From: Rhododendron vialii
Lineage: Eukaryota > Streptophyta > Magnoliopsida > Ericales > Ericaceae
Reading direction: 5' to 3'
Assembly: GCF_030253575.1 (NCBI RefSeq)
Contig: NC_080557.1
Coordinates: 40,221,001-40,285,000, forward strand
DNA: 64,000 nt
The first letter of the stretch is position 1. Every line of letters starts with the position of its first letter. Made by a program: the position numbers and the translations under genes. This document shows, piece by piece, positions 27,301 through 58,584 of this stretch. A model generated the notes under the pieces. That model ran no database searches. It was not told the origin of the DNA and saw only the letters and a program-made list of their open reading frames with translations.

Positions 27301-30300
27301 CAGTTCTTTGACCCACAAAGTATGGTTAAAGATACTGGGGTAGGTCAAGGAGAGAAGAGTTAAAGACTAAGGAAAGACATGGTTGCCTTAAACTTTAGTT
27401 GAAGATATTACTTCCAATAGAGCCTATTGGAGGAATGTATTGGTTAAATTGAAGAGAAACAAAAGAGAGAAGAGGAAGAGTAAGAGTAAGAAAAAGAAAA
27501 GGGGAACGAAATATACAAATGGGCACTTTCTTATCAGTTTAGTCTGAGAAATTCAACAAGTACCCTTTTTCTATTGACAATAAGCTCTAGCACTTCACTT
27601 CAACTTGGTGTAGATATGTCTCTCATGCCCAAGCTGAAACCGCTATCCCATTTTCCTAGATGTAATGCCTCTCCACCCGAATATACTTGGTCCTGTCATA
27701 TTTAACAAGATTATGAGCAATGCCACATCACTCACATTACAAATTTGTGGACCGTCACAAATTTTTGCTATGATAGAATTGTGTTCTTTTATTCTTTGTG
27801 GCCATTTTTACTTTGAAGTTCCACTAATTTCATGATTTTCCCTATTTTTCGGCCAGTTGAGAGGCCATCGAATCGGGGGAGGGTGGAAGTGGTAAGACTA
27901 AAAAACTTGACCCGCCCAACGGTGGGATTGGGGGAGTTTAGCCATGTTGACTAGCCCCAGCTGAATAATTTCCGAATTTTCTATTGCAAGTCAATGTAAA
28001 GTGAATAGGTTGTATACTCGTTCAATTTCGGAAGTTGGAAGAAGTACTTATTACTCCTTTAGAAAGACTGTAGTCTCTTTAGATTAAAGCTTTTAGCATC
28101 CACATCTAATTGTTGTCGTATTTTACCAGATTTTTGTTTCTGCAGATATTTGGAAAGAAAAAGTACTTCCCATTTGTACTTTGGGGTTTCAACATATCTG
28201 TTCTTATATGTAACCGTGTTTTTGAGGGTTATCGGTTCTCCAGTATTGGGTGAGTATTGACTGGTTGCTTCAGTTCTTATAATATGTTGAGTAATAGTTT
28301 AGTGTGATACTTTGGGAAAACAATTGCCCTGTTCAGTTTCTCTATTTGGTCGTGATTATGTTTTCTTCTTGTGCCCAGGCAGCATTGGGCTTATTTGGAC
28401 AACTTCCGGGGTTCCTTTAGATGGCATATCTGCTTTAATTTTGGTATTTTCTTTGCCTCTTTCATTTTGTGGAATTTCAGTGGAATTGTGTTCATATGAT
28501 TCTCACCTTATGGACGTGAACTTCTTTCATCTTATGGTTTTGCTCATTCTTCTGCTATCATTTGTCATTAAGATGTTCAAATTAGTTAAATTTCTCACTT
28601 CACTCTGCCGGCACGTCGTGCTGGCATATATTGCCATGTAGAAGTGTTTCATTTTTCTCCAGAATAAAAGTACCCTCATAATGTCATTATTCTCATATTT
28701 GGAACACGTATTAGAAAAGGTTCCCACATCTTAATGACATGATGCTTCGTTGTTATTACTACTTCTCCTGTTAATGGGGTGCGGGAGGGCTAGATGGGTA
28801 CAGACCTCACCTTTGGCATTATTTTGACAGTTGCCATCGTGGAAATTTCCTTGGATATATCTTTCTGTAACCTTAATTAGTATCACTGCATGTTACGGAA
28901 TTCTTGTACTTGTGCTTAGCTATTAGATGTGGCGACTTTGCAAATAGTCTTTTGTTGGAATAACAAGGATGCAACAGTTTTGGTACTATTGAGAATTTTT
29001 GTGCATATTTTTGGGATAGCAAATACGTAGCTGGACAGACCATAGTTGCGATTTCCTTTTCCCCCCCTCCTTTTATGTATTCTCCCAAAGAATGGATTTG
29101 GAAATTAGTTCAATTGGATGAAACCTGATATTGTGGGATCATGTTTAAAGTGACCTTACATATTGTAGATATGAAATCTTTCTCGTGACTTCATAAAGAG
29201 TTTATTAGAATTTTCTTGATTGATCAAACTCGTAATGATCAAAGTCTCCCGAAAATTGTCGGGCCCCCCCATTTGTGGGACTTCCCTCATTTCAAAACAT
29301 CCAATGAACCATAAAAAATCGATTGACCTATTGAAAAAATGGGTAGGTAATTGGTTTAATCCTAGAAAGATACATCATAAAATATAGATGGGAAAAATCT
29401 TAGTTGCAGTCGCCTTTTAAACTCTGCAAGGCACTTCTCAGTCAGTAAATCTGTTACTCCGTAATTCTTTAGTTTTCAGTTGCCATTTTCCAGCAAATAG
29501 GCTGGTCATATCATATCTAATTAGCTCATAACATAATATTGCTTTTATATTAATCTCACTAATGATATCGTATCCGATTGCTTAAACCCATTTGTTTTAC
29601 TCAGATTTGTCTTCCTTTTGCAGAAGCAAAACTCATATTATCTTTTATGAATTCCATGTCTATGATCTTATTTTGGTTTATCTTGTTGACAGTTACTTTG
29701 CGCCAGATAAGCTTTGGGTATGATTATCATTGGGCATGTTGTAGTTCTCGGTTGGATCAAAAGGTATGTTAGGAGTTATATATAGGTTTTAGTATTAGTA
29801 TGTGAGGTATGGTCATTGTATTCTGTACTCTCCTCCATAAACATGTGCATTAGGGTTGAACACTTTTTTCTCATCTCTGTTAACAATACTTGTTTGTCTA
29901 AAGGTCTTTGTCGGTGTATCTTACCAAGTTGCTTGTTTCTGCCCAAACTTCAAAATAGCTTAATCTTGAGATTGTCTGGTAAACTGATTCAAAGAAATTG
30001 TGTTTCATAGTAGTTCGTGTATCAGTTACTTACTTTCTTTGGGTTTTCTTCAACTATCGTCATGATCAATTTCTTGTTGTTCGAACATTTGCAGTTGCAA
30101 TACATGTGTTAGACTTTATCTCACATCGCTCATCTAAACCACCCAAGCTTGGTTAATAAAATCTAGAGGCTACTCCACCTATTGCCAATCGGTTTTAGGT
30201 TGGAACCCTCCAAGAAATCTAACATGGTATCAGAGCTAGGTCTTGGGTGGCCTCACCTCTCGAGCAAAAGTCTTTGTCATCTAAAGTCTTTGTCACCGAG

Positions 30301-33300
30301 TCAAATCTCCTGGTTTCCTCAATTCGTACCTCCAAGTGCATCCGGACTGCACGTGAGGGGGAGTGTTAGACTTTATCCCACATCGCTCATCTAAGCCACC
30401 CAAGCTTGGTTAATAAAATCAATAGGCTACTCCACTTATTGCCAATTGGTTTTAGAGTGGAACCCTCCAAAAAATTTAACAAAATGAATTGATTGTCTCT
30501 AATTTGATTACTGCTCATAGAGTATCTTTATTTTGATGTTTTCACCTTTCTCCGATTGCAGAAGCACATTCAAAGTTGCCGTAAATGTTCATCAGGACAA
30601 AAATGCTTCCTGCTATTACAGGTTGTCTTTTAGGTTCTAGTATCACTGCAATTGCTAAATTGTAGTCTTGCTGTCATCTGGACTAATATCTTCTTTTGAA
30701 TGAACTATTTTCCTCAGGAGAGAAACCTCCAGAACAATAATTTCTCCTTGGCTGTATACCTATGTTATTTGATATATGCTCCCCTCTATATTGCTGGACC
30801 AGTTCTAAGCTTTAATGCATTTGCGTCACAGGTATTTTTTCTATATTTTTCTGTTTTTTGGTCTTTTATAGTAACAGTATAACACTCTTGTATTTTTTTG
30901 AAATTTCACCATGGTGTTTCTTTTATCCCTCTACATGCTTCCAAGTTCCAAGCGTTTGTGGCCACTTCTTTTTATAGTAGGGTCTGAACATTTACATTCG
31001 TGTTTCTTTTGTTCATGTTGCTGAAACATTTCTCAATTGCCTTGACTTTTAGTTTGAAATTTCTGAAGCTTCCATATTGGACCAATTATTTTCTCTATTG
31101 ATCTGTTTTTGCCCTTACTTATTGCTTTAGTGTATACCTTTCAGTACGTTGTAAATGATCTAATCATAGCGGTGTAATACACTCTTACTGCAGTTAGATA
31201 CCCCTCAGAAAAACTATTCACTCAGGGAAGTGGCTTGGTATGGGTTGCGCTGGGTTTTTAGTCTCTTACTAATGGAATTAATGACACATTTATTTTACTA
31301 CAATGCCTTTGCCATAAGGTGGGCCTGTTTTGAACTCCTTACACATTATCCTAAAAGTTTTCTTGTATTGAGTGTTGTTTTCTGACCAAATCATCTTGAT
31401 GCACCATCAGCGGCTTGTGGAAACAGTTATCTCCCATGGACGTTTTCATCATTGGATACGGGGTAAGGGTCGATTTGTAGGTTGTTATAATGCCAAATAG
31501 CTTTGTTTTACTACTCATGCTCTGGCATACTATTCACTAAGCTTTGTTTCATGCCGAAAATCTTGACTCTCTAAAGTACTGGAATGACATAGCCTTTGCA
31601 ATTACATCTATGTTTTTACAATGCAACAGGTTCTTAACTTCATGTGGCTCAAGTTTTCTCTAATCTGGCGCTACTTTCGCTTCTGGTCGCTTGTATGTAT
31701 TTCACTTTTATGCTTCCCCTTTCACTTGTTTCCTCTACTGCAACCATATTTAAGCTATCCAATAGGACCAAACCTGATCTAGCTCAGATCAATCTGATTT
31801 TGACAGAACAAGTTTAGCTATATTATGTTCGGAAGAAAGTCATTTATCAACTTAATCTGCAGATCAGTGGCATTGAGGTGCCTGAGAATATGCCAAAGTG
31901 TATAAATAATTGCTACAACTTAAATACTTTTTGGAAAAGTTGGCATGCTTCTTTCAACAAATGGCTTGTCAGGTGAAGCTTTCAGATTTTATCTTAAAAT
32001 TCTCTCACATTTATGGTTCTATCTGTCATATTGGTTGTGAATGACTATAATTTCAGGTACATGTACATTCCTCTTGGTGGTTCTCAAAGAAAGCTGCTCA
32101 ATGTATGGGTTATCTTCACATTTGTCGCCATATGGCATGATTTGGAATGGTACTCTTAGCTTTCATTATGCTTTCTGTTGTCTGCAAGTGTAGTTTTGTA
32201 TTTAAGGGACATACCATTTTAAATCGACTTGGCATGATTGCTTTGGCTTCAGGAAACTTCTTTCGTGGGCATGGTTAACATGCGTATTCTTTGTCCCAGA
32301 AATGATTGTGAAATCAGCAGCAACTTCTTTTCAGGTGATACTCTTCTTGTGTAGTCTATCTCCATGCTTTACAGTATGCTCTGAGTTAATGCCCCTCCAA
32401 TCCTGACACAGATCATAAAGCTATTGAATTTATGACTAATATGAATATGGAAGTCAATAGAATTTCAAAGAAATTTACGGGGCTATTTTGCTGAGTGCCT
32501 TAGATCGATCTTTCTCGCGCCCCCTGGGTATTCTCTATGTACACGCTTGTGTCGGTCGTACCCTTTTTGTTGATTTTAGAACATAACAGTAAATTTTGAT
32601 TAGCGATATGATCTGTTATGGTATGGAACTTTTATTTTGTCACTTTTCTGAGTCCTCTAGATAGGAATTCCTACTAGACAGTTGTTATTTTCATTTTTGA
32701 AAATCATCTAGAGTTTTTGTTACAGTTCGATATTTTAATCCATTTGGAATTTTTATAAACACTTCCATATTTTGCCCCTGCATGAGATCATCCTAAACAT
32801 AGTTTCAATCAGCTTTCAGTCAGGCTCCATTTCTCATCCTAAACACTTCTTAAATGGGCTGGTTGGGTTTGGCTTGTGCTCAGGTTGGATTTGCTTTGGT
32901 TAGCAACTCTTATTTTCTGGTAAAGCTTTTGTCAAGGCAATACAAAGCTTTATGCCTACATTAAATCTCACCGGGAAGGTTCAAAGAAATTTCTAAATCA
33001 ACCAACCTGATGAAGAAGCACTACTTTCTGAGTGTGGTTTTGAGTTGGTAGCATAATTACATGCTTGGGGCAGCAGTCCTTTACGTTTTCAGTCACTTCT
33101 TAACTTTCAGGATTCAGATTATCAGCTACTTAGGTGTGGGATTTGCTATTAGGTCTAGGTGATTCCTTGGGAAACAATGAAACAACAAACCCCAAATGTT
33201 AGTTCGATTAGGCTCTATTGGGCTCTTTCTCATGGCAAAGCGTCTGTCAGGGTCAAGATGATTTAGAGAATTTGCGCAACATGGAGTTTGGAAATCAAGT

Positions 33301-35219
33301 TTGAGGTCTCTTGGTGGTTGGGACTTGGGTGATTGAATTAATTGATATTCCCTGTGACTATTTAATGCTCTGTTAGCCTAGGAGTACATGGAATTGAAGT
33401 GCCTGAAATCATATGATCTTTCACTTAAATATACATTTATCTCCCACTCAGACCACTCATTAGTCAGACTTGGCTTGTAATTCTTTAGCCAAGGCATTTA
33501 AAGATTTCCTCTGCCTCTTGAATTCACTTTCTTAGATTGGAGCCCTCGTACTAAATTTTGAGAATTGATAACATGGTATGTGGACCAGTAGCTCCCAAAG
33601 AACTGCATTTTGTGTAGGAATTTTTGAGGGGTGGTTACTCCTTTCGCCGTGTATCATACACATCTGAAAAGGTTACTATGGGAAACGTCTACTATCTTTA
33701 TTTCCCTTAGAATTAGAGTTTGATTTGGAACTAGCCAGCCTGGTGGCTAATGAGTAGGCCAATTTTTTGGCTGCATTAGGGTAACCACATAAATCTTGTA
33801 AATCAGTCGACCACATATCATTTGCTGACCTACATATTATCAAGATAATATAGATTACGGTAACAACATGTTATCTGGTGGCCCACGCTTTGCTACATTA
33901 GGTAAACCATGCTGTTGGATGAAAAACTATGTTCTTTCTCTGCTTTCATCCAACATCAAAGTTTATCTAGTGTCTAAGTCTATCTGTTGTTGCACTTTTT
34001 GTTTTAAATGTTCATTCAGCTAGTACTCCTGTTTCTTTTTTGAACAAGTGTACTAATTAGTTTGGTCTCATGTCTGCTTTCAGGCCCCCAGTGCTTTTGG
34101 GGAGTTTGTTTTTCGTGAACTTAGTGCACTTGCTGGTGCTATCACAATAACTTGTCTCATGGTATGTCTACTTGCTCTTTTCGCTTCACTAATAACAGTT
34201 TGATGTTGGATGCTTACAATTCTGCTTGTAATGTCATGTCGTTAATAGATTGTGATAGTAGATTATTTTGTGGTTGTTTGGTTGGGCGTTGACATCTCAA
34301 GTTGATATGCGCCAATGCCCAGTATAAACTTGGTAAGTTAAAGTCAAGTGGTTTGTAATTGCAACTAAAGCTCATTGGATAAAGCTTTCAACTCGGAACT
34401 TGAGAAAAAAGTTTGTGGTGTGTTTGAGTTAATAGTCGTTCACTGCGGAAAATGATGCCTTGCAAATATTGCTTAAAAACACAGTAGCAGCTTGTTTCCC
34501 CCAACTAAGCGGGTTTTCAGGTTTTCAAATAGGACTTTGTAAGGGGTGGTGCCTTTGAGATGCGATTCCCAATATTCCGTCACTTCAAGCAAACCCAGAA
34601 GTTGAACTTTTCATTGCTGAAACATTAAATTAGGCAGCTATTCGATTGTGTAATATCTGTACTCTCACAGTTCATGCTTGTGTGATCACAACTGTGCGAA
34701 ACAACTATTCATGCATAGAATTAGAAATCCAAAATAATTTAAATTCCTCTAATGCTATGCACCGGAAATGATTCCTTACACGGCTCCCTAAGATCCTACA
34801 TTTATCCCTGATTTTGCTTTTTACGTGGTTAGCTTTGAGGAAGTTTAGACTAGAATAATCGTGGAGTAATTCTAAACTTTCATTTCTGCAGGTGGCTAAC
34901 CTTGTTGGTTATGTTATTGGACCGTCAGGCATGAACTGGTTGATTTCTCAATTCCTCCGAAAAGAAGGTTCATGCTCTTACCTATTGCCGTTATTTGATG
35001 AAACAAATATATTGGAGACTAACAGCTCTTTATGTTTTTTTTTTTAGGCCTACCTACTCTTGGAGGCATGTTTCTTACATTTTATGTTGGGACGAAGGTA
35101 GAAAGATAAATCTCATCTATTTCGCAGTTGCCTTGTGAGTTTTAGAAATTAACTCGAGGGGCTGGTTGATTTTGCAGCTTATGTTCCATATCCGTGACGC
35201 CAAGCAAAGGAAAGACTGA
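24353..35219 (+). CDS. GUP1: Membrane-bound O-acyltransferase, Gup1/HHAT family
   Basis: Nineteen exons join in frame to 524 residues, all with GT-AG borders: 24353-24455, 24629-24684, 26801-26982, 27080-27128, 28146-28249, 28379-28443, 29693-29763, 30562-30621, 30718-30831, 31194-31318, 31411-31462, 31630-31692, 31863-31972, 32057-32149, 32253-32334, 34084-34161, 34892-34967, 35048-35097, 35178-35219. The protein is a multi-pass membrane protein. Family marks: LRPGW near the N terminus, GQHWAYLDNFRGSFRW, SFGYDYHWA, the WHASFNKWLVRYMYIPLGG segment (His376, Asn380) and the active-site His412 in IWHDLEW. A soluble loop has CRKCSSGQKC. Yeast Gup1 acts on GPI-anchor lipids and animal HHAT palmitoylates Hedgehog; the plant substrate is unproven. 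The C-terminal FHIRDAKQRKD is basic and cytosolic in style. Introns contain a TRIM and a LINE remnant; intron 15 is 1.7 kb. Confidence 0.93.
24499..24520. repeat. TG microsatellite in intron 1 of the acyltransferase
   Basis: Uninterrupted TG run followed by TATAG. Confidence 0.85.
27290..27520 (+). mobile_element. LINE 3'-end remnant in intron 4
   Basis: Short pieces in two frames, RKDMVALNF and VEDITSNRAYWRNVLVK, resemble the conserved tail after the reverse transcriptase of plant L1-type LINEs. They are separated by a frame change and stops, so the copy is dead. Borders are approximate. Confidence 0.4.
30102..30486 (+). mobile_element. TRIM (terminal-repeat retrotransposon in miniature), fossil
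   Basis: Two direct terminal repeats of 118 bp, 30107-30224 and 30364-30481, each opening TGTTAGACTTTATC and closing with AACA. Directly after the first comes TGGTATCAGAGCTAGG, a primer-binding site for initiator Met tRNA; directly before the second is a purine tract GAGGGGGAG. Near-matching five-base flanks (ACATG and AAATG). The whole is 375 bp, noncoding, lying in intron 7 of the acyltransferase. Terminal repeats are about 93-95% alike by eye, so it is moderately old. Confidence 0.85.
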
Positions 35220-45678: not shown

Positions 45679-46303
45679 TTGGACGTGTTTTGTATTTCTC
45701 ACGAACGTGATCTTCTGTTAAGATAATCTGTGTCCGTGTTCTCATATGTACTTCCAACAGAATGATAGGTTCTCCATTCACATTGTAAATACTGGGGGTG
45801 CATTGGGAACGTGGGACAGACTTTTGCTACAGAGAATCTTGATTGTTATTCTGAAGAATGTTTCTCGGTCTAGCGAGCCATAATCAACAGAGAATCTTGA
45901 CCGTTTTTCTGAAGAATGGTTCTCGGTCTAGCGAGCCATAATCATGTAACTGGAATTTCCTAGTCCCCTACATGAACACTGAAGATATATGGAAGGGAGC
46001 TGTTCACTGTTGTACTCTGCTTTTATGGTTCAGTAACTCTGATACACAGCAGTTGTATTAACAATAAGTTGAATAATGAATTGAATGAATTCAAACTACC
46101 ATTGCAGCTTTCAATTGTTTGCTTGGATATTAGAAACGGGTGAACCAGTTTCTCACATTGGGTGTCTCAGTATTCACATTAAAAAAATAAACTGCTTTCA
46201 ATTCATTTTCTTTGGACCCTAGATTACTCGAGAAAAAAAAGAAAATATAACGAGAACGAATACATAAACCAAATAGTATATTCTTTGATATTTATGTACA
46301 TCA
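45679..46303. other. 3' flank of PAPS1
   Basis: Probable 3' untranslated region and short intergenic DNA up to the Harbinger element. It contains a 59-bp tandem duplication. Confidence 0.5.
45829..45946. repeat. 59-bp tandem duplication in the PAPS1 3' flank
   Basis: ACAGAGAATCTTGA through TCTCGGTCTAGCGAGCCATA then ATCA is present twice, starting at 45829 and 45888, with about four differences. Confidence 0.85.
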
Positions 46304-46566
46304 GGGCCTGTTTGGAAGCAGAATTGTGAAGGGGGATTATGATATCCCCCCTCCTAATACGTGGGGCCACGTATATGGCGTGGTTTGGGAAGCTGAATAC
46401 CAGGGTGGATATCTTTACACAGTCCTTCGGTAATCCCTCCCAATACAGCCTGAGGGGGGCTTGGAGATAGCTAGGGTTTGAGCAAGCCATCTCGAATCCG
46501 CCCTAATCCCCCCATCATTCGGACCATCTTACCCCTTCTAATCCCCCTTACCCATCCCCACGCATC

Positions 46567-47050
46567 ATTTCTGCCGCACTCTTGTCGGTCTCTTCTTGTT
46601 CGAAAAGAGAAAAGGCCTCGAAGAGGTTTCTGGCGATTTGGTGCTTTTGGTCGATTTAGTTCGATTCACTCCAGGTATGAACAACATTCTTCGATTTGTT
46701 ACTGTTTTTGTGCATTTCTGTGTTCGATTTTGTGTTGATTTATCATTCCAGCAGTGTATTTGTTCGATTTGATCTGTGGGTTTTGTGGGTGTGGACTCCA
46801 GGTACCATTTCTCTGTCTCTACTCTTCTTGGTCTGTGGTTGTTGGAACGAGAAGAAAGGCTGGAAGAGTTTTGTGGCGATTTGGTGCTTTGGTCGATTTC
46901 AGTTGGATTCACTCAGGTATGAACAGGAGTCTTCTATTTTGAACTGGTTCTGTTGTTTTTTAGGTTCGATTTGGAGGCCATTTTTTATTCCGGCAGAGTT
47001 TGGGTTCGATTTGGTTTGTGGGTTATGTGGGTTTGAACTGTTCGAAGCTG
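46567..47050 (+). repeat. Two-copy leader duplication, about 242 bp, in the Harbinger element
   Basis: Both copies run from a TCTTCTTG start through TGGCGATTTGGTGCTTT, GGTCGATTT and GATTCACT to CAGGTATGAACA, then a second block TTCGATTTG with GTGGGTT. Copy starts are about 46580 and 46822. In each, CAG followed by gtatga looks like a splice donor (46674 and 46917), so this may be a duplicated 5' leader exon of the transposase gene. Confidence 0.65.
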
Positions 47051-48064
47051 TCCGATGTAGGATGGTCCGAAGCTATGGGCGTGATATTGTCTGTTCATAA
47101 ATTTGTTTTTACATTCGCTTGTTTATAGACATGTTAAAAAGTATTGAAAAGTTAAAAATGATATATACGGCTATAAATATGCCCAGATTGAAGTATTCGA
47201 TTTATGTATGTATCTTAAACGATTTACGTTGGACTCGCACAAGTCAAATGGCTCTGGATTGTATATGAACATTTATATATGTGGCCGACGGATTTTGTGG
47301 AATTACAATATATATTATGAAAGAGAAATTAGTAAATCCACCAACACTTTCTGACTATTCTTAAATATGACTGAAAAAAAGAATATGGCGAATTTGGGTA
47401 TTTCAAAGTCGTGGCTTCACATTATATTGATTCCTTCTTCTAGACAAAGGCAAGAAAGGAAAATAATAAATTATGATAGGTGTGTAGCTCCTTCGATGCA
47501 TGTTCTCCCACCACAAGGATATATAAAAATTATTGCTGTATATTTTTCTTATATGGAATGAATTGCACAACACTACATTAATATTATAAATACCCACCAA
47601 TCTCTTAATTGATTAAGTGTTCGTTTTGGTTTTGTGGTTTTGTGGGTTCTATGGACGAAAATCCATGGATTTGTTGTTGTGGATTGTTTTGTTGGTGAAT
47701 AATATGTCGTAACCCATAAAGTTGGGTTGGAGAACACAGTTTGATGATTTTTTTGTCATCTAAAATATGGCAAAAGAGGTCTGGTGTAGGATAATGGTAA
47801 ATAGGTACGATAAAACATATGATGAGTATGAAGTTTAAATTAAAACAAAGTAAGTAGATGAGTATGAGTTTGGAATTTGTATATGTGTATATATCCATTG
47901 AATTGTGTTCATTATTGGTGAATAATATGAAACCTTACCTAAAAACCCAAACCCTAATGATATGGATTTGATTTTTTATGAATAGTTAGGGTTCATCATT
48001 GTTAGTTAAGATTTAAAGATTAGGTTTTCATAAAAAACCCTAAATCTTGTAAGGTTTTTGTAGA
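47051..48064. other. Leader or intron of the transposase gene
   Basis: AT-rich, no coding frame of note. Probably the intron between the leader exon(s) and the transposase ATG at 48065. ORFs here have no family pattern. Confidence 0.4.
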
Positions 48065-49480
48065 ATGGCAAGATTAAATAGGAAACAAAAAAGGAAAAGA
48101 GAAGAGCAAGAGGGATTGATGGCATTACAGGCCTTTATGAACGCTGTCATTGGTGTTTTTCGTTTGTACTTGTTCATCACGTCCACGTTTCGCCCTCGTC
48201 GTCCGGAGTTGTCTCCGAATCCAGACTTTTACCAGACGCACGTAAACAACATCAATAGGCTTGTAAGGGGTAGTGACGCGGACTGCCATGAACAGTTGAG
48301 GGTGAATAGACAAACTTTTATGAGATTGTGTTGTTTAGTCCGAGGTGTTGGGTTAACCGACTCACGCAACGTATGTCTCGAGGAGAGGGTAGCAATATTC
48401 TTGTGGGTCCTCGGTCACCATACGAAGCAGAGGCGTACAAAATTTGAATTCTATAGGTCTACTGAGACAATAAGTAGGCATTTCAATGCTGTACTCCAAG
48501 CTGTCTTGCGCCTTCACCGAATGCTCCTAGAGACGCCCAACCTTGTACCTGCTAACTACGAAGACAATAGGTGGAATTGGTTTCAGGTATAGTCCTTTTG
48601 AATTGTTCATATGTCATCCATTGTCAAGCTTTCCTCTTTTACTTCCACATATTCACTTACGTTAATACTCTTGTCCACTTTTGTTAGAATTGTCTTGGGG
48701 CCTTGGATGGGACGTACGTGCCAGTAAATCCCCCGGCCGCGGATAGGCCACGATATAGGTCGAGGAAGGGTGATATTGCTACTAATGTCTTAGGTGTTTG
48801 TACCCGGGACCTTAAATTTGTCTATGTATTGTCTGGTTGGGAAGGATCGGCCACAGACTCTAGAATCCTTGGAAATGCCATGGAAAGACCCCACGGTCTT
48901 AGAGTTCCCCGTGGTATGTTTCATATCCTAAGTTGTAGTTTACTTTGACTCCATTAAAGTTATCCACCCATCAATGTGTTGTCTTCCATTCGTTACAGGA
49001 CAATATTACCTTGTTGATGCCGGCTACACCAATGGCAACGGTTTTTTAGCACCATACCGTGGACAGCGATATCACATTAACATTTGGAGGCAAGGTCACA
49101 TGCCAATAAGCAAAGAGGAGTTCTTCAACATGAAACACTCTGCCGCTAGGAATGTCATTGAGAGAAGCTTCGGGGTTCTCAAGATGCGGTTTGCAATTTT
49201 GAGATCTCCCTCGTATTACCCTATAAGGACTCAATGTCGTATCGTGTCAGCATGTTGTCTGCTTCATAACCTAATTAAGAGAGAGATGCCGAACGATCCC
49301 ATTGAACACGAGTACACTGCGTGGGAACAAGCACATGTGAACGATGTCCCTGTTGATGATAACATTGTTAACGTTGAGAGTTCCAATGAGTGGACTGCGG
49401 GGAGGGATGCTCTAGCGGCGGCCATGTATAACCATTGGTTAGCCAATGGTGGGGGACAAGTGGAGGGCATCCTTCCTTGA
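48065..49480 (+). CDS. Harbinger (DDE_Tnp_4) transposase
   Basis: Exons 48065-48586, 48688-48913 and 48999-49480 join to 409 residues with GT-AG introns and no internal stop. It cuts and joins the element's ends. The N-terminal half has a basic start ([10 protein letters not shown]) and a helical DNA-binding part ([42 protein letters not shown]). The RNase H-like core has GALDGTYV (Asp181), a conserved Asp231 in [16 protein letters not shown] (Asp256) and [11 protein letters not shown] (Glu304); Asp256 to Glu304 spacing of 47 residues matches the family. The conserved CLLHNLI follows. Start at 48065 gives the expected length; the gene is followed at 175 bp by its SANT partner on the same strand. 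Confidence 0.92.
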
Positions 49481-49655
49481 TTATATTTTCGTTTTGTGGT
49501 GTACAACATTGTAATTCTAATAATTCGAACTTGTTCGAAACTTATATTTGTGAACAACTTGTAACGTACTATTGAATTTGCCGGTATTTTTCATAACGTA
49601 ATGTTTAAGGTCGTACTATTACAATTGTTGGCCACTTTTAAATGCATTTGCAGCT

Positions 49656-50741
49656 ATGGCTACTAACGATGTGGAAGTAGTGGAAGTGGAAAGGCCTACA
49701 AAGCAAAAACGTAGGACTTGGAGGAAAAGGGAGGAGGATGCACTAATGAAGTGCATGCTCAATGAAGCAGCACAGAAGTGGAAGGCCGATAATGGCTTCA
49801 AAACGGGTTACTTCACCCATTTGGAGAAGGAGTTAGAGAAAGTGCTCCCGGGTTGCAACCTTAAGGCAAACCCCCACATTGACTCTAAGGTGAGGTATTG
49901 GAAATGCGTATGGGCTAGAATTGTAGACATTACAAACCTAAGTGGTTACGGGTGGGATGCGGTCAACAAACGCATCGACGTGGACCAAGTTGTATGGGAT
50001 GCGTATGAAAAGGTAAGTCCCCATCTTGAATTCCAATGCTTTAAATTGAATATTAAGGCATGAGAATTCGTAGTAAATTTTTAAATGGTTGTGTAGGCCT
50101 ATCCTAAAAAGGCCCAAGGCTTGTATGGGAAGTCTTTCCCGTACTTTGAAGATTGGCAAACCATATTTGGCAAGGATAGGGCTACGGGGGCAGCCGCCGA
50201 AGATTATGACGAAATGGCGCGGCCGGATATTCCCAATGAAAGTGTGGAGCCACACAACTCTACTGACTTTTACGATGCCCTATTCGATAACTACGATCAA
50301 CATCTCCCCAATACTCCTACAACTCCCGTAACTCCTACAACTCCCGTAACTCCCACACCTCATTCGTCACTCCCCACGTCCACTCCCCATGGGTCAATGC
50401 CGGCGGCCAATGCTGGAGTCCCAAACAAGAGAAAGAGGACAAGAATGGGTGATGCAGAGTTGTCCATCCATGCGAGCATGGACAATTTCTTCAAGTCAAG
50501 TAGTACCTATATGGAGAAGATGGCCAATTCGTTTGGCTATGACAAAGAGTTATCCGCCCGACGCACGATGGTGAAAGATGAGTTATCGAAGCTTGATATC
50601 ACCTTGACAGAGAAGTTCAAGCTAAGTGCAGTAATCGTGCAAGCGGAAGAGAGGGTGGATGACTTCTATGGGACTAAGCCCGAGGAGAGGCAAGCTTTTG
50701 TGGAGGCCATCCTTGCCGGTGAAGTGTATGGTCCCATCTAG
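49656..50741 (+). CDS. Myb/SANT-like DNA-binding protein, Harbinger ORF1 partner
   Basis: Exons 49656-50012 and 50097-50741 give 333 residues, uninterrupted. Residues about 20-120 are a Myb/SANT-like trihelix domain (RRTWRKREEDALMKCMLNEA, then KVRYWKCVWARIVDI and GYGWDAVNKRIDV), with the exon junction before AYPKKAQGLYGKSFPYFEDW, the typical place in this family. Then a Thr/Pro repeat region (TPTTPVTPTTPVTP), a nuclear signal KRKRTR, and a helical C-terminal part. In Harbinger elements this protein brings the transposase into the nucleus and to the ends; that role is inferred here from its place beside the transposase. Confidence 0.88.
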
Positions 50742-51080
50742 TGGCATTGAGGAATGAATGCCTTTTTGAAGTGGCTAAAGTACCATTATAAGCAAGAATG
50801 GTACTTTACCCACTTTTTTTGTAGTGGCATAATTAGGAAGCCTTTTGTTAATCCCTAATGAACATTTGCTGCCTTTTGTAATGTAATATGGTACATGTGG
50901 ATGCATAGTTTTTGCTAATATTTGGGAATGTATTATGAAGTATATATATGAACTAATGCACTTTGATCTTAAACTTGGCAATTTTGTACATTTGATGCAT
51001 ACATTTTGTTAATATTTGGGGATTGTAATATGAAGTTTGTTTGCATGACAGGTTGTTTGCAACTAAAGTGAGTCTTACTA

Positions 51081-51187
51081 GGGCAATGATGAAGCGATTA
51101 ATTCTTATTTAAGGTAGATACCGTGGCGGGGTAACGGTAGTTGCAGCCATTGAGTTCCCTAATGATGGAATTATATTGTCGGAGCCC
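51081..51187 (+). ncRNA. C/D-box-like RNA unit 1
   Basis: GGGC stem strand, C box AATGATGA at the start, internal GTGGCGGGGTAAC and GTTGCAGCCAT, and a weakened end CGGAGCCC where other units have CTGAGCCC. Diverged member. A 25-nt mini unit follows 6 bp later. Confidence 0.45.
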
Positions 51188-51193
51188 ATTGAA

Positions 51194-51218
51194 GGCTATG
51201 ATGAAATTTTTCTGAGCC
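51194..51218 (+). ncRNA. Mini C/D hairpin 1
   Basis: GGCT, C box ATGATGA, seven bases, D box CTGA, GCC. Stem plus facing C and D boxes would form a kink-turn with a small loop. Confidence 0.35.
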
Positions 51219-51351
51219 GCTGTCCACTTACTGGTAGCTTTGTGGAGCATGTGCAGAGTGTGTGTGTCTGTGTGATTAGGTGCAGTTCAACTGTCATAAA
51301 AATCCTACCTAAACTGATGATCCATGGCAATGATGAATCAATCCATTAATA

Positions 51352-51461
51352 GGGCAATGATGACAAAATACATTAGTTGTGATTAACGTAGAAACATTGG
51401 CGGGGTAACAAATGTTGCAGCCATGACTACCCTTGTGATAACAAATATATGATCTGAGCCC
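51352..51461 (+). ncRNA. C/D-box-like RNA unit 2
   Basis: GGGCA then ATGATGA (C box), middle TTGGCGGGGTAAC with GTTGCAGCCAT, and ATGAT CTGA GCCC at the end (D box plus stem strand). GGGC/GCCC pair at the ends. About 110 nt. Confidence 0.5.
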
Positions 51462-51679
51462 TGTCATAACTCCAATGCAGTGCATGAATCAATGCAGTTA
51501 AGTAAATGGCAATGAAGGAATTTTGAACTGTTGGTTTCTATAGTGCTTATTGTAATTGCATAGAACATGAGGTGTACGAAAATGTGATGGTTCTGTTCAG
51601 TAGCAGGTTCAGTTTTGGCCATATTGTTTCTGTTCTCAACTGTGGGAAGCAATTTTGTGCAGTTTTGGTACCCCTAATA

Positions 51680-51787
51680 GGGCAATGATGACAAAATTAG
51701 AATTTAAATTAATGTAGTGCCTTGGCGGGCCAACTTTTTGTTGCAGTCATGCATACCCTTGTGAATAAAAATACATGATCTGAGCCC
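51680..51787 (+). ncRNA. C/D-box-like RNA unit 3
   Basis: GGGCA ATGATGA ... CTGA GCCC, 108 nt. Between: CTTGGCGGGCCAAC, T-loop, GTTGCAGTCATGC, forming an internal hairpin GCCAAC/GTTGC. Near-duplicate of unit 5. Confidence 0.55.
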
Positions 51788-52072
51788 TACCAGTCCAGTT
51801 TTCAGCTTTGTCCAATGCTGTCTCCAAAATGCAGTGTCCTCGGCGTGTCCCCCATGTGTCCCCTATAAATAAATAATTATTATGAATTAAAATACCACGT
51901 AGCGTGTCGAATACGTATTTGGGCGTGTCCCCATGTCCAATACGTGTTTGGTGTCTATGTTCTGTTCAGTTTCTTTTGGTTTCTGCAGTGGTGTTTGTAA
52001 TGGCATAGAACTGGGTCATTTGGCCTATGATGATACTTCTATGTGCCTCTGAATCAATCCTGATAAGTAAAT

Positions 52073-52097
52073 GGCTATGACGAAATTTTGCTGAGCC
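52073..52097 (+). ncRNA. Mini C/D hairpin 2
   Basis: GGCT ATGACGA, seven bases, CTGA GCC, with outer T and A extending the stem. The C box has one change (GACGA for GATGA). Confidence 0.35.
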
Positions 52098-52414
52098 ACC
52101 TGTTACTGACTTCCCAAACGACGCCATATAGCCAGGCCCACGGACTAGAAGGGGGATATCACAATTGAATCTGGGCTGTTTTCTGTTTACAGCAGTTTGA
52201 TGTTCTGCAGTTTAATGTTCTGCACTTTCTGGTTTGTTGCTTGTTGTATATGGATTGTTATAGCTTAATTCTGCAGTTTTGAAGGCTGGACATTAGTACT
52301 GCTCTTTCCTGTTCATCAGAATGGCATGCAGTTTTGTAGTTTTTGGATACTGCAGTTTTGTTCTGTTCTGGTGCAGCTATTTCTTATGTTGTGGTTCTGC
52401 AGTATGGGAGGGGG

Positions 52415-52500
52415 TGTTGTGTGTGTGTGTGTGTGTGTGTGTGTAGCAGGTGCAATGTGTGTGTGTGTGTAGCATGTGCAGAGAGAGAGTGTGTGTGTGT
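52415..52500. repeat. TG microsatellites between RNA units
   Basis: Several TG runs separated by AGCAGGTGCAA and GCATGTGCAGAGAG. Similar TG runs recur at 52868-52940 and 53995-54050, at corresponding places of the segmental duplication. Confidence 0.8.
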
Positions 52501-52585
52501 CCAGTTTTCTGCTCTGTCCAGTTTTAAGCAAGCTGTATCTGTGTTGTCTTCCAGTTTGTTCTTCTATTGTAAGTGGTTCTTCATA

Positions 52586-52694
52586 GGGCAATGATGAAAA
52601 AATGACAATATAACTGAAGGTTGTGGCATGGCGGGGCAACTTTTGGTTGCAGCCATGCGTACCCTCTTGCGTTTCGTAATAATTTACTGAGCCC
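52586..52694 (+). ncRNA. C/D-box-like RNA unit 4
   Basis: GGGCA ATGATGA ... CTGA GCCC, 109 nt. The internal hairpin is the best formed: GGCATGGC-GGGGCAAC-TTTT-GGTTGC-AGCCATGC pairs across. A possible D' box (CTGA) follows the C box at about 40 nt. Near-duplicate of unit 6. Confidence 0.6.
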
Positions 52695-52775
52695 ATTACG
52701 ATTTCTGATCTGTCCACTTGACGAGTTGAAAGGTTTCTGCACTTCACATTATGTTCTGTTCTGGTTTAGTTTAGT

Positions 52776-52783
52776 TATGTTCT

Positions 52784-52817
<34 letters not shown>

Positions 52818-52824
52818 CGGTTCT
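52776..52824. repeat. GGTTCT hexamer repeat
   Basis: About seven tandem copies of GGTTCT, one reading GGTTCC. Confidence 0.85.
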
Positions 52825-53117
52825 GCTGTATTGTTAAGTTCAGGTTATGCAGTATGGGAGGGGATGTTGTGTGTGTGTGTAGCAGGTGCAATGTGTGTGT
52901 GTGTGTGTAGCAGGTGCAGGGGGATTGTGTGTGTGTGTAGCAGGTGCATTTATGTGTAGCAGGTGCATTTATGGTCTCTGTGTGTGGCAATGGCAATGGT
53001 TGAGTTTGGTCTCTGTCTGTGTGGGAGGTTCTGTTTTATAGCAGGTTATGTTTTGGCCATATTCTTTCTGTTCTCAACTGTGGGAAGCAATTTTGTGCAG
53101 TTTTGGTACCCCTAATA

Positions 53118-53225
53118 GGGCAATGATGACAAAATTAGAATGTAAATGAATGTAGTGCTTTGGCGGGGCAACTTTTTGTTGCAGCCATGCATACCCTTGT
53201 GAATAAAAATACATGATCTGAGCCC
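53118..53225 (+). ncRNA. C/D-box-like RNA unit 5
   Basis: GGGCA ATGATGA ... CTGA GCCC, 108 nt, with internal GGCGGGGCAAC, T5 loop, GTTGCAGCC hairpin. Differs from unit 3 at a few sites, two of which restore pairing in the internal hairpin. Confidence 0.6.
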
Positions 53226-53453
53226 TATCACCCCAGTTTTCAGCTGTGTCCAATGGTGTGTCCAAATTGCAGTGTCCTCAACGTGTCCCCTATAAAAGCA
53301 AATAATTATTATTGGATACGCCACATCGCATGTCCAATACGTATTTGGGCGTGTCCCCGCCGTGTCCCCGTGTCCAATACGTGTTTGCTGTGGTGTTTGG
53401 ACATGTTTCAATCACTTAACTGCACTTGCACAATTTCTTTAGCATCACTGGTG

Positions 53454-53477
53454 GGTATGATGACATTGTTCTGAGCC
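53454..53477 (+). ncRNA. Mini C/D hairpin 3
   Basis: GGT ATGATGA, seven bases, CTGA GCC; the stem includes a G-T wobble. Intact C and D boxes. Confidence 0.3.
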
Positions 53478-53697
53478 AAGGCCATGGTTTTATGTTAATT
53501 TCTGTTGGTGGTTATGATGAAAAGTTGTTTTGTGACCTGTTCCTTCCACTTTTCTGTGCAGTTGATTTCAATTCTGTGGGCAACTGTGTTGCTAGTTCAA
53601 TGGGCAGTTTGTGGGCTGTTTTTGCAGGTTACTTAGTCATGTAGGAGGGGGGATATCATAATCCCCCTTCACAATTCTGCTTCCAAACAGGCCCTAA

Positions 53698-54131
53698 AGG
53701 TTACAGTTTTGGCAAGGGTTTTGTTTCTGTTTGCTAGACTGTTTCTGTTTGCAGTTTTGGCATGAGGTTGTAAACTAAATGGCTATGATGAATAAGTTCT
53801 GAGCCAAATGACATAAGAGAAGGCTATGGTCTCATGCTTCCTGAGCCTACTACGATTTCTGATTTGTCCACTTGAGGAGTTGAATGGTTTCTACAGTTGA
53901 CATTATATATGTACTGGTGTAGTTCTGAAGTTTTGTTCTGTTTTGCTTCTGCAGTTTGGTTAAGTTCTGGTACTGCAGTTTGGAGGGGGTGTAGTGTGTG
54001 TTTGTGTCAGGTGCAATGTGTGCGGCAAAGAGTGTGTGTGTGTGTGTTCAATTTTCTGCTCTGTCCAGTTTTAAGCAAGCTGTATCTGCTGTGTCCAATT
54101 AGCTGTTCTATATTCTAAGTGGTTCTGAATA
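53698..54131. other. Inter-unit spacer right of the Harbinger end
   Basis: T/G-rich spacer (TTCTGTTTGCAG-like motifs) with a mini hairpin at 53781 and, near 53840-53885, the tail of a lost unit: CCTGAGCCTACTACGATTTC, matching the sequence that follows units 4 and 6. Confidence 0.45.
53781..53805 (+). ncRNA. Mini C/D hairpin 4
   Basis: GGCT ATGATGA, seven bases (ATAAGTT), CTGA GCC. Complete stem and both boxes. Lies outside the Harbinger terminus. Confidence 0.35.
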
Positions 54132-54238
54132 GGGCAATGATGAAAAATAACAATATAAATGAAGGTAGTGCCTTGGCGGGGCAACTTTGGTTGCAGCCAT
54201 GCGTACCCTCGTGTGTTTCGTACTAATTTTCTGAGCCC
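54132..54238 (+). ncRNA. C/D-box-like RNA unit 6
   Basis: GGGCA ATGATGA ... CTGA GCCC, 107 nt, with CCTTGGCGGGGCAAC and GTTGCAGCCATGCGTACC inside. It lies 440 bp beyond the Harbinger right end yet is a near copy of unit 4 inside it. Confidence 0.6.
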
Positions 54239-54291
54239 ACTACGATTTCTGATCTGTCCACTTCAGGAGCTGAATGTTCTGTTGAGGTTCT

Positions 54292-54984
54292 GATCTGGTC
54301 TATGAAGCATGGATACGGGATACGGATACGACACGATACGGAACATTGAACATTCTATGATTCTTTTAAAAATTTCATTTTAACCCCCGCCGTATCCTAA
54401 ACGTATCCTGCCGTATCCCCCACGTATCCCTCGCGTATCCGAAACGTATCCGAAATAAAAAATATTTAATTTAAATGCAGGATACTTATTTGCCGTATCC
54501 GATACGTATCGGGCCGTATCGGGCGCTGATAAGCACCCCATCGATGCCGAGGTCATTAACTCGGCGCTTGGCTGCCTGCCTCTGCCTTGGCTGTCTTGTT
54601 TTGCTCGGGCGAGTCTTGTTTTGCTCGGGCGAATCAGCTTCTGCCTTGGGCATCTCTGGTTCTGCTCAGGCGAAACAACTTCTGCTCGGGCGAAACAACT
54701 TCTGCTCGGGCGAAACAACTTCTGCTCGGGCTGTTTCCACCTTGACATGCCTTAGGCCTCAAAGATTCCTTTATTTGGCGATTTATCTACAAAACATAAC
54801 CAAAGCACTATACGAGCAAACACGTTAATAATAACTAAAAAGTAATTAAATTTGACTAAAACTAGATACTAGCGCACCCTACATTACATTCTCGGGTGCT
54901 TATCAGACGTGTATCCGTATCCCTCGCGTATCCGATACTCGTACGTGACTAGTTTTGGAGTATCCGTGCTTCATAGGATCTGGT
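54292..54984. mobile_element. hAT MITE made of GTATCC repeats, split by a solo LTR
   Basis: Perfect 8-bp direct repeats GATCTGGT at 54292-54299 and 54977-54984. Element 54300-54976 starts CTATGAAGCATGGATACGG and ends inverted as GTATCCGTGCTTCATAG. The interior is dense in GTATCC/GGATAC motifs of both orientations. It is interrupted at 54527-54905 by a solo LTR. The eight-base duplication marks the hAT superfamily; its design parallels the CCGGTA element at 21558. Confidence 0.85.
54527..54905. mobile_element. Solo LTR of a retrotransposon (fossil), nested in the hAT MITE
   Basis: 379 bp bounded by TGATAAGCACCC and GGGTGCTTATCA, TG...CA ends as in LTRs. No internal coding region remains, so it is a solo LTR, probably of a Ty3/Gypsy element. 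Flanking five-base repeats GGCGC and GACGT are alike but not identical, suggesting moderate age. Inside is a short tandem repeat of CTTCTGCTCGGGCGAAACAA at about 54655-54735. Confidence 0.7.
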
Positions 54985-55274
54985 TCTCCAGTTCTGTTTC
55001 TGTATGGTGTGTCTGGGTACTGTATTCTGTAGTTGAGTTTCTGTTCAGTTTCTGTTTTGGTATTTGAGACTGTTATTTTTGGTATGTCAGCTGTTTTTGA
55101 GACTGATTTTGAGACTGCTGGTGTGTGAATGTGGGGCCTGTGTATTGTCATGCTTTGGCATAGGTAATGCTGGCCAGTATGGAGTGTGGGATGTTGTGTT
55201 TAAGTGTTGAGCATGCCAATCCAGTTTTCAGGTTTCTGTTCTGCATTGTTTTCGTGGGCTGGTTTTTAACATAT

Positions 55275-55299
55275 GGCTATGACGAAACTTTTCTGAGCC
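55275..55299 (+). ncRNA. Mini C/D hairpin 5
   Basis: GGCT ATGACGA, seven bases, CTGA GCC, with TGG/CCA extending the stem. The C box is the GACGA variant seen in mini hairpin 2. Confidence 0.35.
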
Positions 55300-55565
55300 A
55301 CCTATTCACAGTGAAACATCTAAACGAGCCTTTGACTGCTGGCTGTTTCTACAGTTTTTTGTGGTTGTTTGCTGTGTCCAAACTCTTGCTGCTGCAGCAT
55401 GTGGCTGCCTGTGTTCCAGTTGTGGTTCCTGCAGTAGCATTTTTGGGACACTGTAGTTTTTGGACAGTGCATGAAAACCTGCAGTTTGTGAACTCAAACA
55501 ATGTATTTTTCAATACCAGATGCTGTTTTTAGGCTGTTTTGTTGTCAATTTGTAACTTATATGTT

Positions 55566-55709
55566 GGCCATGATGATATAAAACGAGACAATTTGAGGTG
55601 AGTCACTTATCTTGGCGGGACAAGTTATGAGGGCCAACAGTTCAATCACCGTTCGGCAACATAATTTGTAGCCAAGTAGTGCACAATGCCGGTCGAATAT
55701 ATCTGAGCC
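55566..55709 (+). ncRNA. C/D-box-like RNA unit 7, diverged
   Basis: GGCC ATGATGA ... CTGA GCC, about 144 nt. Keeps CTTGGCGGGACAAG and a GTAGCCA segment but is longer inside than the other units. It is the last unit before the RNase H1-type ORF. Confidence 0.4.
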
Positions 55710-55784
55710 ATATTTATTTGTAAGCATACTCTACATATTGTTTGACAATAAATATAGTTATTGTTGTATCCAACTAGATTTGCA

Positions 55785-56144
55785 ATGAGAAGTCAAGACA
55801 AAGATAAGTTTTGGGTGGTTTTCATTGGTCGTAAACCGGGTATATATACAAGTTGGACGACCGCGGAACTACAAGTCAATGGATACGCGGGAAACTTGAA
55901 GAAAAGGTACAACACATTAGATGAAGCGGAAGAAGCATTGTTAGCATTTCATGAGGAAAGATACCGGCTAATTCAAGACATGGAGTTGGCCCGAACCAAA
56001 CATCAATCAAACGACGGTGCTTCGACATCCACAAGTGCTTTGGAAGTTCAATACCAACCTAGTCTAACAACATACTTTGTTGTAATTTTTTTGTTAGGTT
56101 TCGTAAGTTGTATTTTATTGGCACATCTGTTCAATTCGGAGTAA
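55785..56144 (+). CDS. Small protein with RNase H1 N-terminal (viroplasmin-like) domain and C-terminal membrane segment
   Basis: ORF of 119 residues from the ATG at 55785. Residues about 7-55 (KFWVVFIGRKPGIYTSW, then ELQVNGYAGNLKKRYNTLDE and AEEALLAF) are the hybrid-binding domain found at the N terminus of eukaryotic RNase H1 and in caulimovirus P6; it binds RNA:DNA hybrids or dsRNA. No RNase H catalytic domain follows. After a Ser/Thr-rich linker comes a hydrophobic stretch TYFVVIFLLGFVSCILLAHL, a likely tail anchor. It lies between the last C/D-like unit and a minus-strand SANT ORF. An intron before the ATG is possible (TAG at 55776-55778). It looks intact; whether it is expressed, and whether the hydrophobic tail is real coding sequence, is unknown. 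Confidence 0.65.
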   Translation: MRSQDKDKFWVVFIGRKPGIYTSWTTAELQVNGYAGNLKKRYNTLDEAEEALLAFHEERYRLIQDMELARTKHQSNDGASTSTSALEVQYQPSLTTYFVVIFLLGFVSCILLAHLFNSE

Positions 56145-56480
56145 AGTTGTAAGTTTTATTTCAAGAATTTGGACGAATTAGGTTGGGAACACTGTATAAG
56201 TTGTAAAAATTTCGTAAGTTGTATGTTTTATTTCATCAATCACGTTGGCATATTGTTTTTTGGATATTTTGTTCTCATAACTAACGTATGAAAGATATAA
56301 ATTATTTGATGGTTCAAAATTTCACTGCAAAACAATAGTACAATACAGAGCCCCAACAGAAGTACACCCTCTCACATCCATACATAAAACAAATTAGGAA
56401 GCCCATTGATTTATTCGTCAACACATTTATTATCATAACTTCAATTTATTCTTCCAATGGCCGCCTTAAACTTCGAACTT
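56145..56480. other. Short AT-rich gap between opposing ORFs
   Basis: Likely 3' untranslated DNA of the RNase H1-type ORF (plus) and of the SANT ORF (minus). Nothing else seen. Confidence 0.4.
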
Positions 56481-56652
56481 CTAGTTCTCCTCGGAAACAA
56501 AGCAATAGGCCCATCGATTAAAATGGGGAAATTGCCTGTCTCGTAAATGTCTCAGATGTCGTTGATCCTACATATAAAAGTTAGGAAAACATTAACAAAA
56601 TTTACAGACCAATACTTTATACAAAATTGAAAAAACATTGAAAAGTACTTAC

Positions 56653-56964
56653 TTGGACAAATTCATTCCAAATTTCATTTGCCACCACTAGCTTGTTTTC
56701 ATTTGGATTCCACCCGAACCCAGGACGCCTAAGCATAGCGTCTAGTATACGATAATCACTCTTCCATTTCTTGATCCTTCCTTCAATATGAATTTCGTTT
56801 ATACCTGCTTGAGGGAAAGAAACTCGCATCTCATTTTTAAGAACTCCCAAGTAGGAAGGGCGAAACCCTCCGTTGTCGGTTCGCCAAACCCCCTGATCTA
56901 CAAGGCTCGTAAGGTTTGTTAACAATGCATCCTCCTCCTCCTCGCTCCAAGCCCGGCGTGCCAT
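56653..56964 (-). CDS. Myb/SANT-like domain ORF, first exon, of a second Harbinger-type element
   Basis: Minus-strand exon of 104 codons from ATG at 56964 to CAA at 56653, followed by gtaagt, a consensus donor. It encodes a Myb/SANT-like domain (RRAWSEEEEDALLTNLTSLV, then IEGRIKKWKSDYRILDAML and GFGWNPNENKLVV, ending NEIWNEFVQ). The next exon probably starts after ATGTAG at about 56567 and would read DQRHLRHLRDRQFPHFNRW, a poor match to the usual KGxRxKxFPxYDDW, before a stop near 56490. So the second half looks decayed or truncated. It is only a distant relative of the SANT protein at 49656, so it comes from another element family. Confidence 0.65.
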
Positions 56965-57720: not shown

Positions 57721-57986
57721 TGAGACTGCACAAGGGTAAAAAAGTCATTTGACAGCTTTTTACATTATCCACCCTTCCTAATACCCCTTTTTATCCTACA
57801 TCCAAACCACGTACTATTTTATCCCCCCTTTCTAATACTCCATCCAAACCAATCACTATTTAATCCCCCCTCCATAAATATCACATCAATGCGGGCCATC
57901 CCTTATTAACCAATACCCCCTACTATCTAATCCCCCCTTCTTATATAATACCTCCAAACCTAATACCGCATCCAATCGAGCCCTTA
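57721..57986. mobile_element. Right terminus of a Harbinger-like element
   Basis: Ends ...GCATCCAATCGAGCCC at 57983 followed by TTA. Read inverted, GGGCTCGATTGGATGCGG resembles the GGGCCTGTTTGGAAGCAG terminus at 46304. The subterminal 250 bp repeat AATCCCCCCTTCTAATACYC and CATCCAAACCA several times, as subterminal transposase-binding regions do. I see no matching left end with the same sequence; either it is lost or this end pairs with a distant one. Confidence 0.5.
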
Positions 57987-58279: not shown

Positions 58280-58584
58280 CACACAAATAATCCAAGCCGT
58301 TCATTAAATGTAAAACATTTTTTCAAGGGCCTCCGCAAAAAATCAGCTCAATCCAACACCTATAAGTGCTTGATTCAATCATCTAACTTTTCATTATCTT
58401 GAAATTCGAATGAAAAGTTAAATGATTGAATCGAGCACCTATGAGTATCGGATTGAGCTGATTTTGATAATGAAAAGTTAGATGATTGAATCGAGCACTT
58501 ATAGGTGTTGGATTGAGCTGATTTTTTGCGGAGGCCCTTGAAAAAATGTTTTACATTTAATGAACGGCTCGGATTATTTGTGTG
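58280..58584. mobile_element. Hairpin element with a third arm copy
   Basis: Left arm from CACACAAATAATCCAAGCCG (58280) and right arm ending CGGATTATTTGTGTG (58584) are near-exact inverses over ~110 bp, including TCAAGGGCCTCCGC and CAACACCTATAAGTGCTTGA. Between them sits a third, partial copy of the right arm (about 58410-58465). Transcripts from either strand would make a long, nearly perfect stem. Confidence 0.75.

Follow-up and report, generated by a model that had tools for sequence, protein, structure and literature searches.

In plants, clusters of box C/D small nucleolar RNA (snoRNA) genes are transcribed from a shared RNA polymerase II promoter in which telo-box and site II motifs abound, as set out in a portion of PMC4660826. 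SnoRNA sequence is also known to travel with mobile DNA, since retroposon-like non-LTR (long terminal repeat) elements carry snoRNAs in C. elegans and platypus, according to work cited in a section of PMC2572040. A third point of reference is provided by the TIGR arrays of phages and bacteria, which lie beside a gene for a Nop-domain protein and use the boxes CCA and UG; the relevant part of PMC12045711 also names kink-turns as a feature of snoRNAs. The locus considered here lies in a 64,000-nucleotide (nt) stretch of Rhododendron vialii DNA (contig NC_080557.1, positions 40,221,001 to 40,285,000; hereafter the window), where seven long units (107–146 nt), together with six or more short ones (25–28 nt), form an array on one strand (plus) at 51,081–55,710, in the setting of a PIF/Harbinger DNA transposon. 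With moderate confidence, and from sequence features, the units are read here as orphan box C/D snoRNA-like RNA genes that reside in this element and were multiplied by tandem duplication.

The array bears some resemblance to all three described systems. With plant polycistronic C/D snoRNA clusters it shares box C, box D, a short closing stem, kink-turn geometry, the placement of several units on one strand, and a C′-like box, here in four of the seven long units. It departs from them in consisting of one repeated family with long-unit starts 271 to 1434 nt apart, in its location within a DNA transposon, in its internal GGCGGG hairpin, minimal short units and orphan guides, and in lacking both an upstream sequence element (USE) anywhere in the transposon and a telo-box among the units. 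The C. elegans and platypus examples are alike in the carriage of snoRNA sequence by a mobile element; the carriers there are retroposons, whereas here a cut-and-paste DNA transposon is combined with local tandem duplication. What TIGR arrays have in common with it is a series of box C/D-like units carried by a mobile genome; an assignment to TIGR-Tas was rejected, as no Nop domain was detected in the six open reading frame (ORF) stretches at 48053–56964 (Pfam, E ≤ 0.01).

Seven plus-strand units had been recognized in the original prediction, and all seven are present: U1 (51081–51187), U2 (51352–51461), U3 (51680–51787), U4 (52586–52694), U5 (53118–53225), U6 (54132–54238) and U7 (55565–55710). 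Their limits are set by the closing stem, which is GGGC…GCCC in U1–U6 and TGGC…GCCA in U7 and comprises 4 bp in each of the seven. Each long unit runs from stem to box C, spacer, GGCGGG hairpin, in some cases the C′-like box, a further spacer, box D and the returning stem. A UAGGGC stem is followed by a three-base bulge, box C and 31–37 nt of A+T-rich sequence that holds the lower arm of the hairpin and leads to GGCGGG. Box C (RUGAUGA) and box D (CUGA) are both exact in six of the seven, the remaining unit, U1, combining box C (51086–51092) with a variant box D, CGGA (51180–51183). The predicted start (GGGC) and end (CTGA followed by GCCC) thus hold for most units and fail for the box D of U1 and the stem of U7. 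Similarly, the predicted internal hairpin has its core in all seven, with UGGCGGG invariant and facing A-GCC (A-GUC in U3), and needs qualification for U3, where one C-C mismatch and a G-U pair occur in the inner hairpin, and for U7, where the hairpin is extended around the same UGGCGGG core. The C′-like boxes of U1 (ATGATGG, 51162–51168), U2 (GTGATAA, 51435–51441, with box D at 51454–51457), U3 and U5 match 6, 6, 5 and 5 of 7 positions and lie 11–12 nt before box D; the C′ score summed over five units was reached by 213 of 5,000 shuffles. Judged by the pairing rules of kink-turns, the geometry of the closing stem fits that of a box C/D kink-turn. Box definitions for this comparison follow a portion of PMC11028025.

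The short units, which the original prediction did not include, lie between the long ones, follow the plan GGC.AUGAYGA…CUGAGCC and retain the kink-turn plus a few loop bases. Their stems are GGC…GCC in S1 (51194–51218, with A and G unpaired at the fourth stem position), TGGC…GCCA in S2 (52072–52098), S5 (53780–53806) and S7 (55274–55300), TGGG…GCCA with one mismatch in S3 (53452–53478), and AGGC…GCCT in S6 (53821–53848). Box C reads GACGA in S2 and S7 and is degraded in S6. All six lie on the plus strand. Four degenerate candidates (about 51326, 51506, 52023 and 53510) were excluded from the 13-unit stem count given below.

Support for a shared C/D-like plan comes from a strict kink-turn descriptor (stem, one base, RUGAYGA, at most 150 nt, CUGA and the complementary stem). 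With a 3-bp stem it gave 12 matches in the 64 kb, all within the 4.6-kb array on the plus strand and none on the minus strand; with a 4-bp stem it gave nine, five GGGC/GCCC and four TGGC/GCCA, again all in the array. In 300 shuffles of 50,901–55,800 the mean was 0.023 and 0.013 matches, respectively, and the largest count was 1. Twelve matches against 0.02 in shuffles rule out chance or low complexity as the origin of the units. They do not amount to 12 separate units, because two of them, 51082–51218 and 51326–51460 (the latter spanning U2), borrow a neighboring box D, the first of these because U1 itself has CGGA. Simpler motifs show the same confinement: GGCWATGAYGA has 11 exact matches in the window, all plus and all at 51,082–55,285, and 23 with one mismatch against 3.5 expected, and TCTGAGCC has nine exact matches, all plus and within the array. 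The loose form of TCTGAGCC is not by itself enriched, since one mismatch yields 36 matches against 31.4 expected. A composite unit pattern had no match in the viral_contigs or genome_contigs sets (viral and prokaryotic collections), from which it follows only that this composite pattern is rare there.

In the U1–U6 alignment, 50 of 115 columns are invariant and cluster at the stem and box C, the hairpin core, and box D and the stem. The invariant run of 14 columns at the stem and box C was equaled in 7 of 20,000 column permutations, a figure that ignores relatedness among the copies; the box C score and the hairpin core columns were chosen after the alignment had been viewed. The two recent pairs differ by 14 substitutions, of which two affect the 44 core columns, where proportion would predict 5.4, and both lie in the U3 hairpin. 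When U7 and the short units are added to the comparison, covariation emerges at one closing-stem pair. Across 13 units, the fourth pair of the stem is G-C in six, U-A in five, A-U in one and unpaired in one (S1), and 17 of 100,000 permutations equaled these 12 standard pairs; with 10 less redundant units, nine standard pairs were reached in 171 of 100,000. The covariation score of the closing stem, 0.212 on 12 distinct rows, was reached by one of 500 shuffles. Shared ancestry among the copies inflates these figures; a cautious claim is that one stem pair has undergone two or more double changes.

Comparison with known families points in the same direction. Between 50900 and 56000, all 16 Rfam matches at E ≤ 10 are to C/D snoRNAs, all plus and all sub-threshold, whereas C/D families account for two of seven matches in one comparison stretch (30000–35100) and none of four in another (46300–50900). 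The best match is that of U5 to SNORD89 (RF00578; 29.9 bits, E 0.0072, gathering score 41); the same unit also matches snoR31/Z110/Z27 (RF00353; 25.0 bits, gathering score 45). Both extend over the whole length, and the likeness of U5 to either family lies mainly in the boxes and stem. A covariance model built from U1–U6 and run against the whole window recovers those six units together with U7 (35.2 bits, E 4e-5) and S5 (18.4 bits, E 0.18), a result that gives moderate support to U7; the boxes and stems of S1 and S2 are seen directly. The proposal of a snoRNA-like family is therefore borne out in part, as far as C/D-like anatomy is concerned (descriptor matches, the kinds of Rfam match, one stem pair and the C′-like box in four of seven).

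The array carries signs of local duplication, an aspect likewise new relative to the original prediction. U3 with U5, and U4 with U6, are two pairs that arose in a single tandem duplication, offset by roughly 1.4–1.5 kb, so the seven long units probably represent about five lineages. When all 21 long-unit pairs were aligned with 150-nt flanks, similarity between U1 and U3 and between U2 and U5 stopped within 1–6 nt of either unit boundary, and that of U2 with U4 and U6 stopped within the same distance on the 3′ side. Remaining pairs extend into T- and GT-rich flanks or, where U7 is involved, cover the unit partly; the U1–U2 and U2–U3 alignments carry no information, since the flanked sequences overlap and identical bases were matched to themselves. 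The interval 52001–54000 has a strong plus-strand asymmetry (GC skew 0.233, AT skew −0.296) and many GT runs. S6, judged by its sequence, probably derives from a long unit by loss of the central part, and because it has its 3′ flank in common with U4 and U6, the short units as a class are suggested to be long units without their middle. Some units would thus have shrunk to a minimal kink-turn hairpin through internal deletion.

These minimal forms bear on a reading in which the kink-turns act in cis within a long transcript of the element, in its stability, retention or control of a downstream ORF, and are never released. Units of 25–28 nt leave almost no space for a guide, the array is on the same strand as the transposase and first Myb genes of the element, and U7 ends at 55710, about 75 nt before the start, at 55785, of an ORF with an RNase H1-type domain. 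The long units, however, resemble free C/D RNAs in their ends and size, and for two distant pairs the alignment is confined to the unit, which makes purely cis-acting elements rather unlikely.

Several results weigh against the interpretation as C/D snoRNA-like genes. In a covariance search with Rfam models, of the kind that had been proposed as a check, the weak matches in the array are all of the C/D kind and no family reaches its gathering score anywhere in the 64-kb window, so membership in a known Rfam family at curated score is rejected; a new family would not need such a match. With filters off over 12.2 kb, the U1–U6 model gives U7 16.3 bits, S7 14.6, S2 11.9 and S1 10.3; four long units score 10.7–13.9 on their minus strand, and the lowest scores, those of S1 and S2, are for this reason background. 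Covariation is confined to one pair in related copies, and does not exceed shuffles in U1–U6 alone (233 of 500). Sliding the stem partners by 1–3 columns gives scores of 0.000–0.139, the highest at +2, against the observed 0.212. The folding z of the seven units on the plus strand, +0.26 to −2.75, is near that of shuffles, the minus strand folds lower in five of seven, and a strong thermodynamic fold is not supported. U1 carries CGGA in place of CUGA, and the C′-like box is poor in U4, U6 and U7 (3, 4 and 4 of 7). The 16 nt before box D find no Watson-Crick run longer than 10 nt on the plus strand of the window; the 16-nt minus-strand values are each a guide meeting its own sequence. Patterns from two eukaryotic rRNA stretches, sought as a source of rRNA to compare with the guides, had no match in viral_contigs. 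No USE motif occurs in 46.0–58.2 kb, and the array itself contains no telo-box. Divergence within the recent pairs is, finally, similar in units and flanks: 5/111 for U3/U5 against 3/74 upstream and 10/67 downstream, and 9/110 for U4/U6 against 8/76 and 4/35.

This last pattern, a similar degree of change in the recently duplicated units and in the sequence around them, is what would be expected if a host snoRNA cluster or its pseudogenes had been captured by Harbinger and now persisted as decaying relics that serve no purpose there. Damaged boxes or stems in U1, U3 and several short units are in keeping with such decay, and a part of PMC8903248 describes Pack-TYPE plant DNA transposons, Harbinger-PIF among those examined, that capture and shuffle host coding DNA. 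A captured cluster is at odds with the lack of any Rfam snoRNA family at gathering score in the window, and with the invariance of the boxes and hairpin core in U1–U6 (except the U1 box D and the U3 hairpin) while the spacers vary. Plant snoRNA clusters commonly contain different snoRNAs, whereas the long units form one family. Capture is on balance unlikely.

If the units are indeed snoRNA-like genes, a plus-strand transcript would run across the array, and the kink-turn of each unit (4-bp stem, 3-nt bulge, tandem G-A pairs, U-U and G-C) would bind Snu13/15.5K. Unit ends would then be protected and the flanks trimmed in the manner of polycistronic snoRNAs of plants, leaving a unit RNA that may persist as a nuclear ribonucleoprotein (RNP). 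Such an RNA may act on a target, or may only stabilize or retain the transcript of the element. If these RNAs are produced, structured non-coding RNA would be one of the components of DNA transposons, and new orphan snoRNAs could arise in plants from this source. Carriage of snoRNAs by retroposons has already been published, as the cited section of PMC2572040 indicates; among the matches listed from the open-access literature, none describes C/D-like RNAs within Harbinger or any other cut-and-paste DNA transposon.

The Harbinger setting recognized in the original prediction is supported by a transposase, a Myb gene and copies of the terminus inside the array. Both a DDE transposase and a Myb-like ORF, the two genes expected of a PIF/Harbinger transposon, are present by Pfam and stop-free splice models. 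The transposase (48065–49480, plus) is modeled with three exons (48065–48586, 48688–48913 and 48999–49480) encoding 409 stop-free residues, one of 11 stop-free splice models, picked by eye. Its last part, 48932–49477, matches DDE_Tnp_4 (2.7e-15); of 11 stretches in viral_contigs that fit a peptide pattern from this region, none was confirmed as a relative. A Myb/SANT-like gene follows (49656–50741, plus), with two exons, two stop-free models of 326 or 333 residues and a Myb_DNA-bind_3 match (6.4e-8). A hairpin at 50769–50815, with 19-nt arms that are 95% complementary and a 9-nt loop, lies directly past its stop codon and might signal the 3′ end or give rise to small RNAs.

The candidate left terminus of the element, GGGCCTGTTTGGA… (46304–46356, plus), has the 5′ flank TCA. 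An exact inverted copy lies within the array at 53642–53695 (minus; 54 of 54 positions complementary to 46303–46356), with a GGGCCC end followed by TAA, and a degraded inverted copy lies at 52096–52165 (minus, a 73-column alignment; 46347–46392 and 52110–52155 are 80% complementary). Such inverted copies would fit more than one round of duplication or rebuilding on the right side of the element. The candidate right terminus, reading inward GGGCTCGATTGGATGC (57968–57983, minus, 3′ flank TTA), agrees with the left end at 10 of its first 13 bases, in a search whose pattern permitted those three differences. Because alignment of the full ends scores 15, not above shuffles (300 shuffles; mean 11.5, maximum 19.5), the right end at 57,983 is a candidate only, and the outer flanks, TCA and TTA, differ. 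The outer ends (46,304 and 57,983) would define an 11.7-kb element enclosing the whole array, a placement that is weakly supported; with the inner end at 53642–53695 as boundary, only U1–U5, S1, S2 and S3 are enclosed. Harbinger terminal sequence lies among the units under either choice.

The same terminal copies invite a reading of the units as DNA-level repeats, either binding sites for the transposase or Myb protein or tiny miniature inverted-repeat transposable elements (MITEs) with GGGC ends. GGGC begins both the unit ends and the element ends, copies of the terminus occur within the array, and Harbinger Myb proteins are DNA-binding. The units nevertheless all have the same orientation and, if the outer ends are taken as limits, lie centrally in the element and away from its termini; their interior is unlike the terminus, the seven long units compared by eye have no matching 3-bp flanks, and their G-U pairs and box C/box D asymmetry would suit RNA. 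Repeats acting as DNA are accordingly very improbable. SECIS, hammerhead and MITE readings were also set aside on inspection by eye.

The small plus-strand ORF downstream of U7 (55785–56144) combines an RNase H1 N-terminal domain (Cauli_VI, 1.2e-13; PDB 1qhk, 3.5e-6) with a hydrophobic C-terminal stretch. From its location inside the candidate Harbinger element it is possibly an extra element gene; 15 stretches in viral_contigs fit its peptide pattern and none was confirmed as a relative. Its presence raises a more specific, and doubtful, idea: that this Harbinger lineage adopted the C/D fold, with kink-turn RNA, perhaps together with an RNase H1-type hybrid-binding protein, forming an RNP that stabilizes, localizes or guides the machinery of the element. 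On the minus strand, the first exon of a second Myb/SANT-like gene follows at 56617–56964 (Myb_DNA-bind_3, 7.4e-10).

Between 46.0 and 58.2 kb, telo-boxes occur at 46472, 47949, 48035 and 58137, the middle two (AAACCCTA) lying immediately upstream of the transposase start codon, and the site II motif nearest to these two is at 49911. The array contains seven site II-like hexamers, three of them made by unit ends. Should the array be transcribed, read-through from the genes of the element would be the simplest source.

The Harbinger region is flanked on the left by a poly(A) polymerase gene (PAP_central, 1.5e-50, with PAP_RNA-bind slightly under cut-off) and on the right by a chaperonin-like stretch whose Cpn60_TCP1 match is below cut-off, a gene content that would suit a plant chromosome. 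A nested insertion at 54300–54975, between U6 and S7, has inverted ends, TATGAAGCATGGATACG…CGTATCCGTGCTTCATA, recognized by eye. Past the candidate right end, an inverted repeat at 58280–58584, with 119-nt arms that are 98% complementary and 67 nt apart, is MITE-like.

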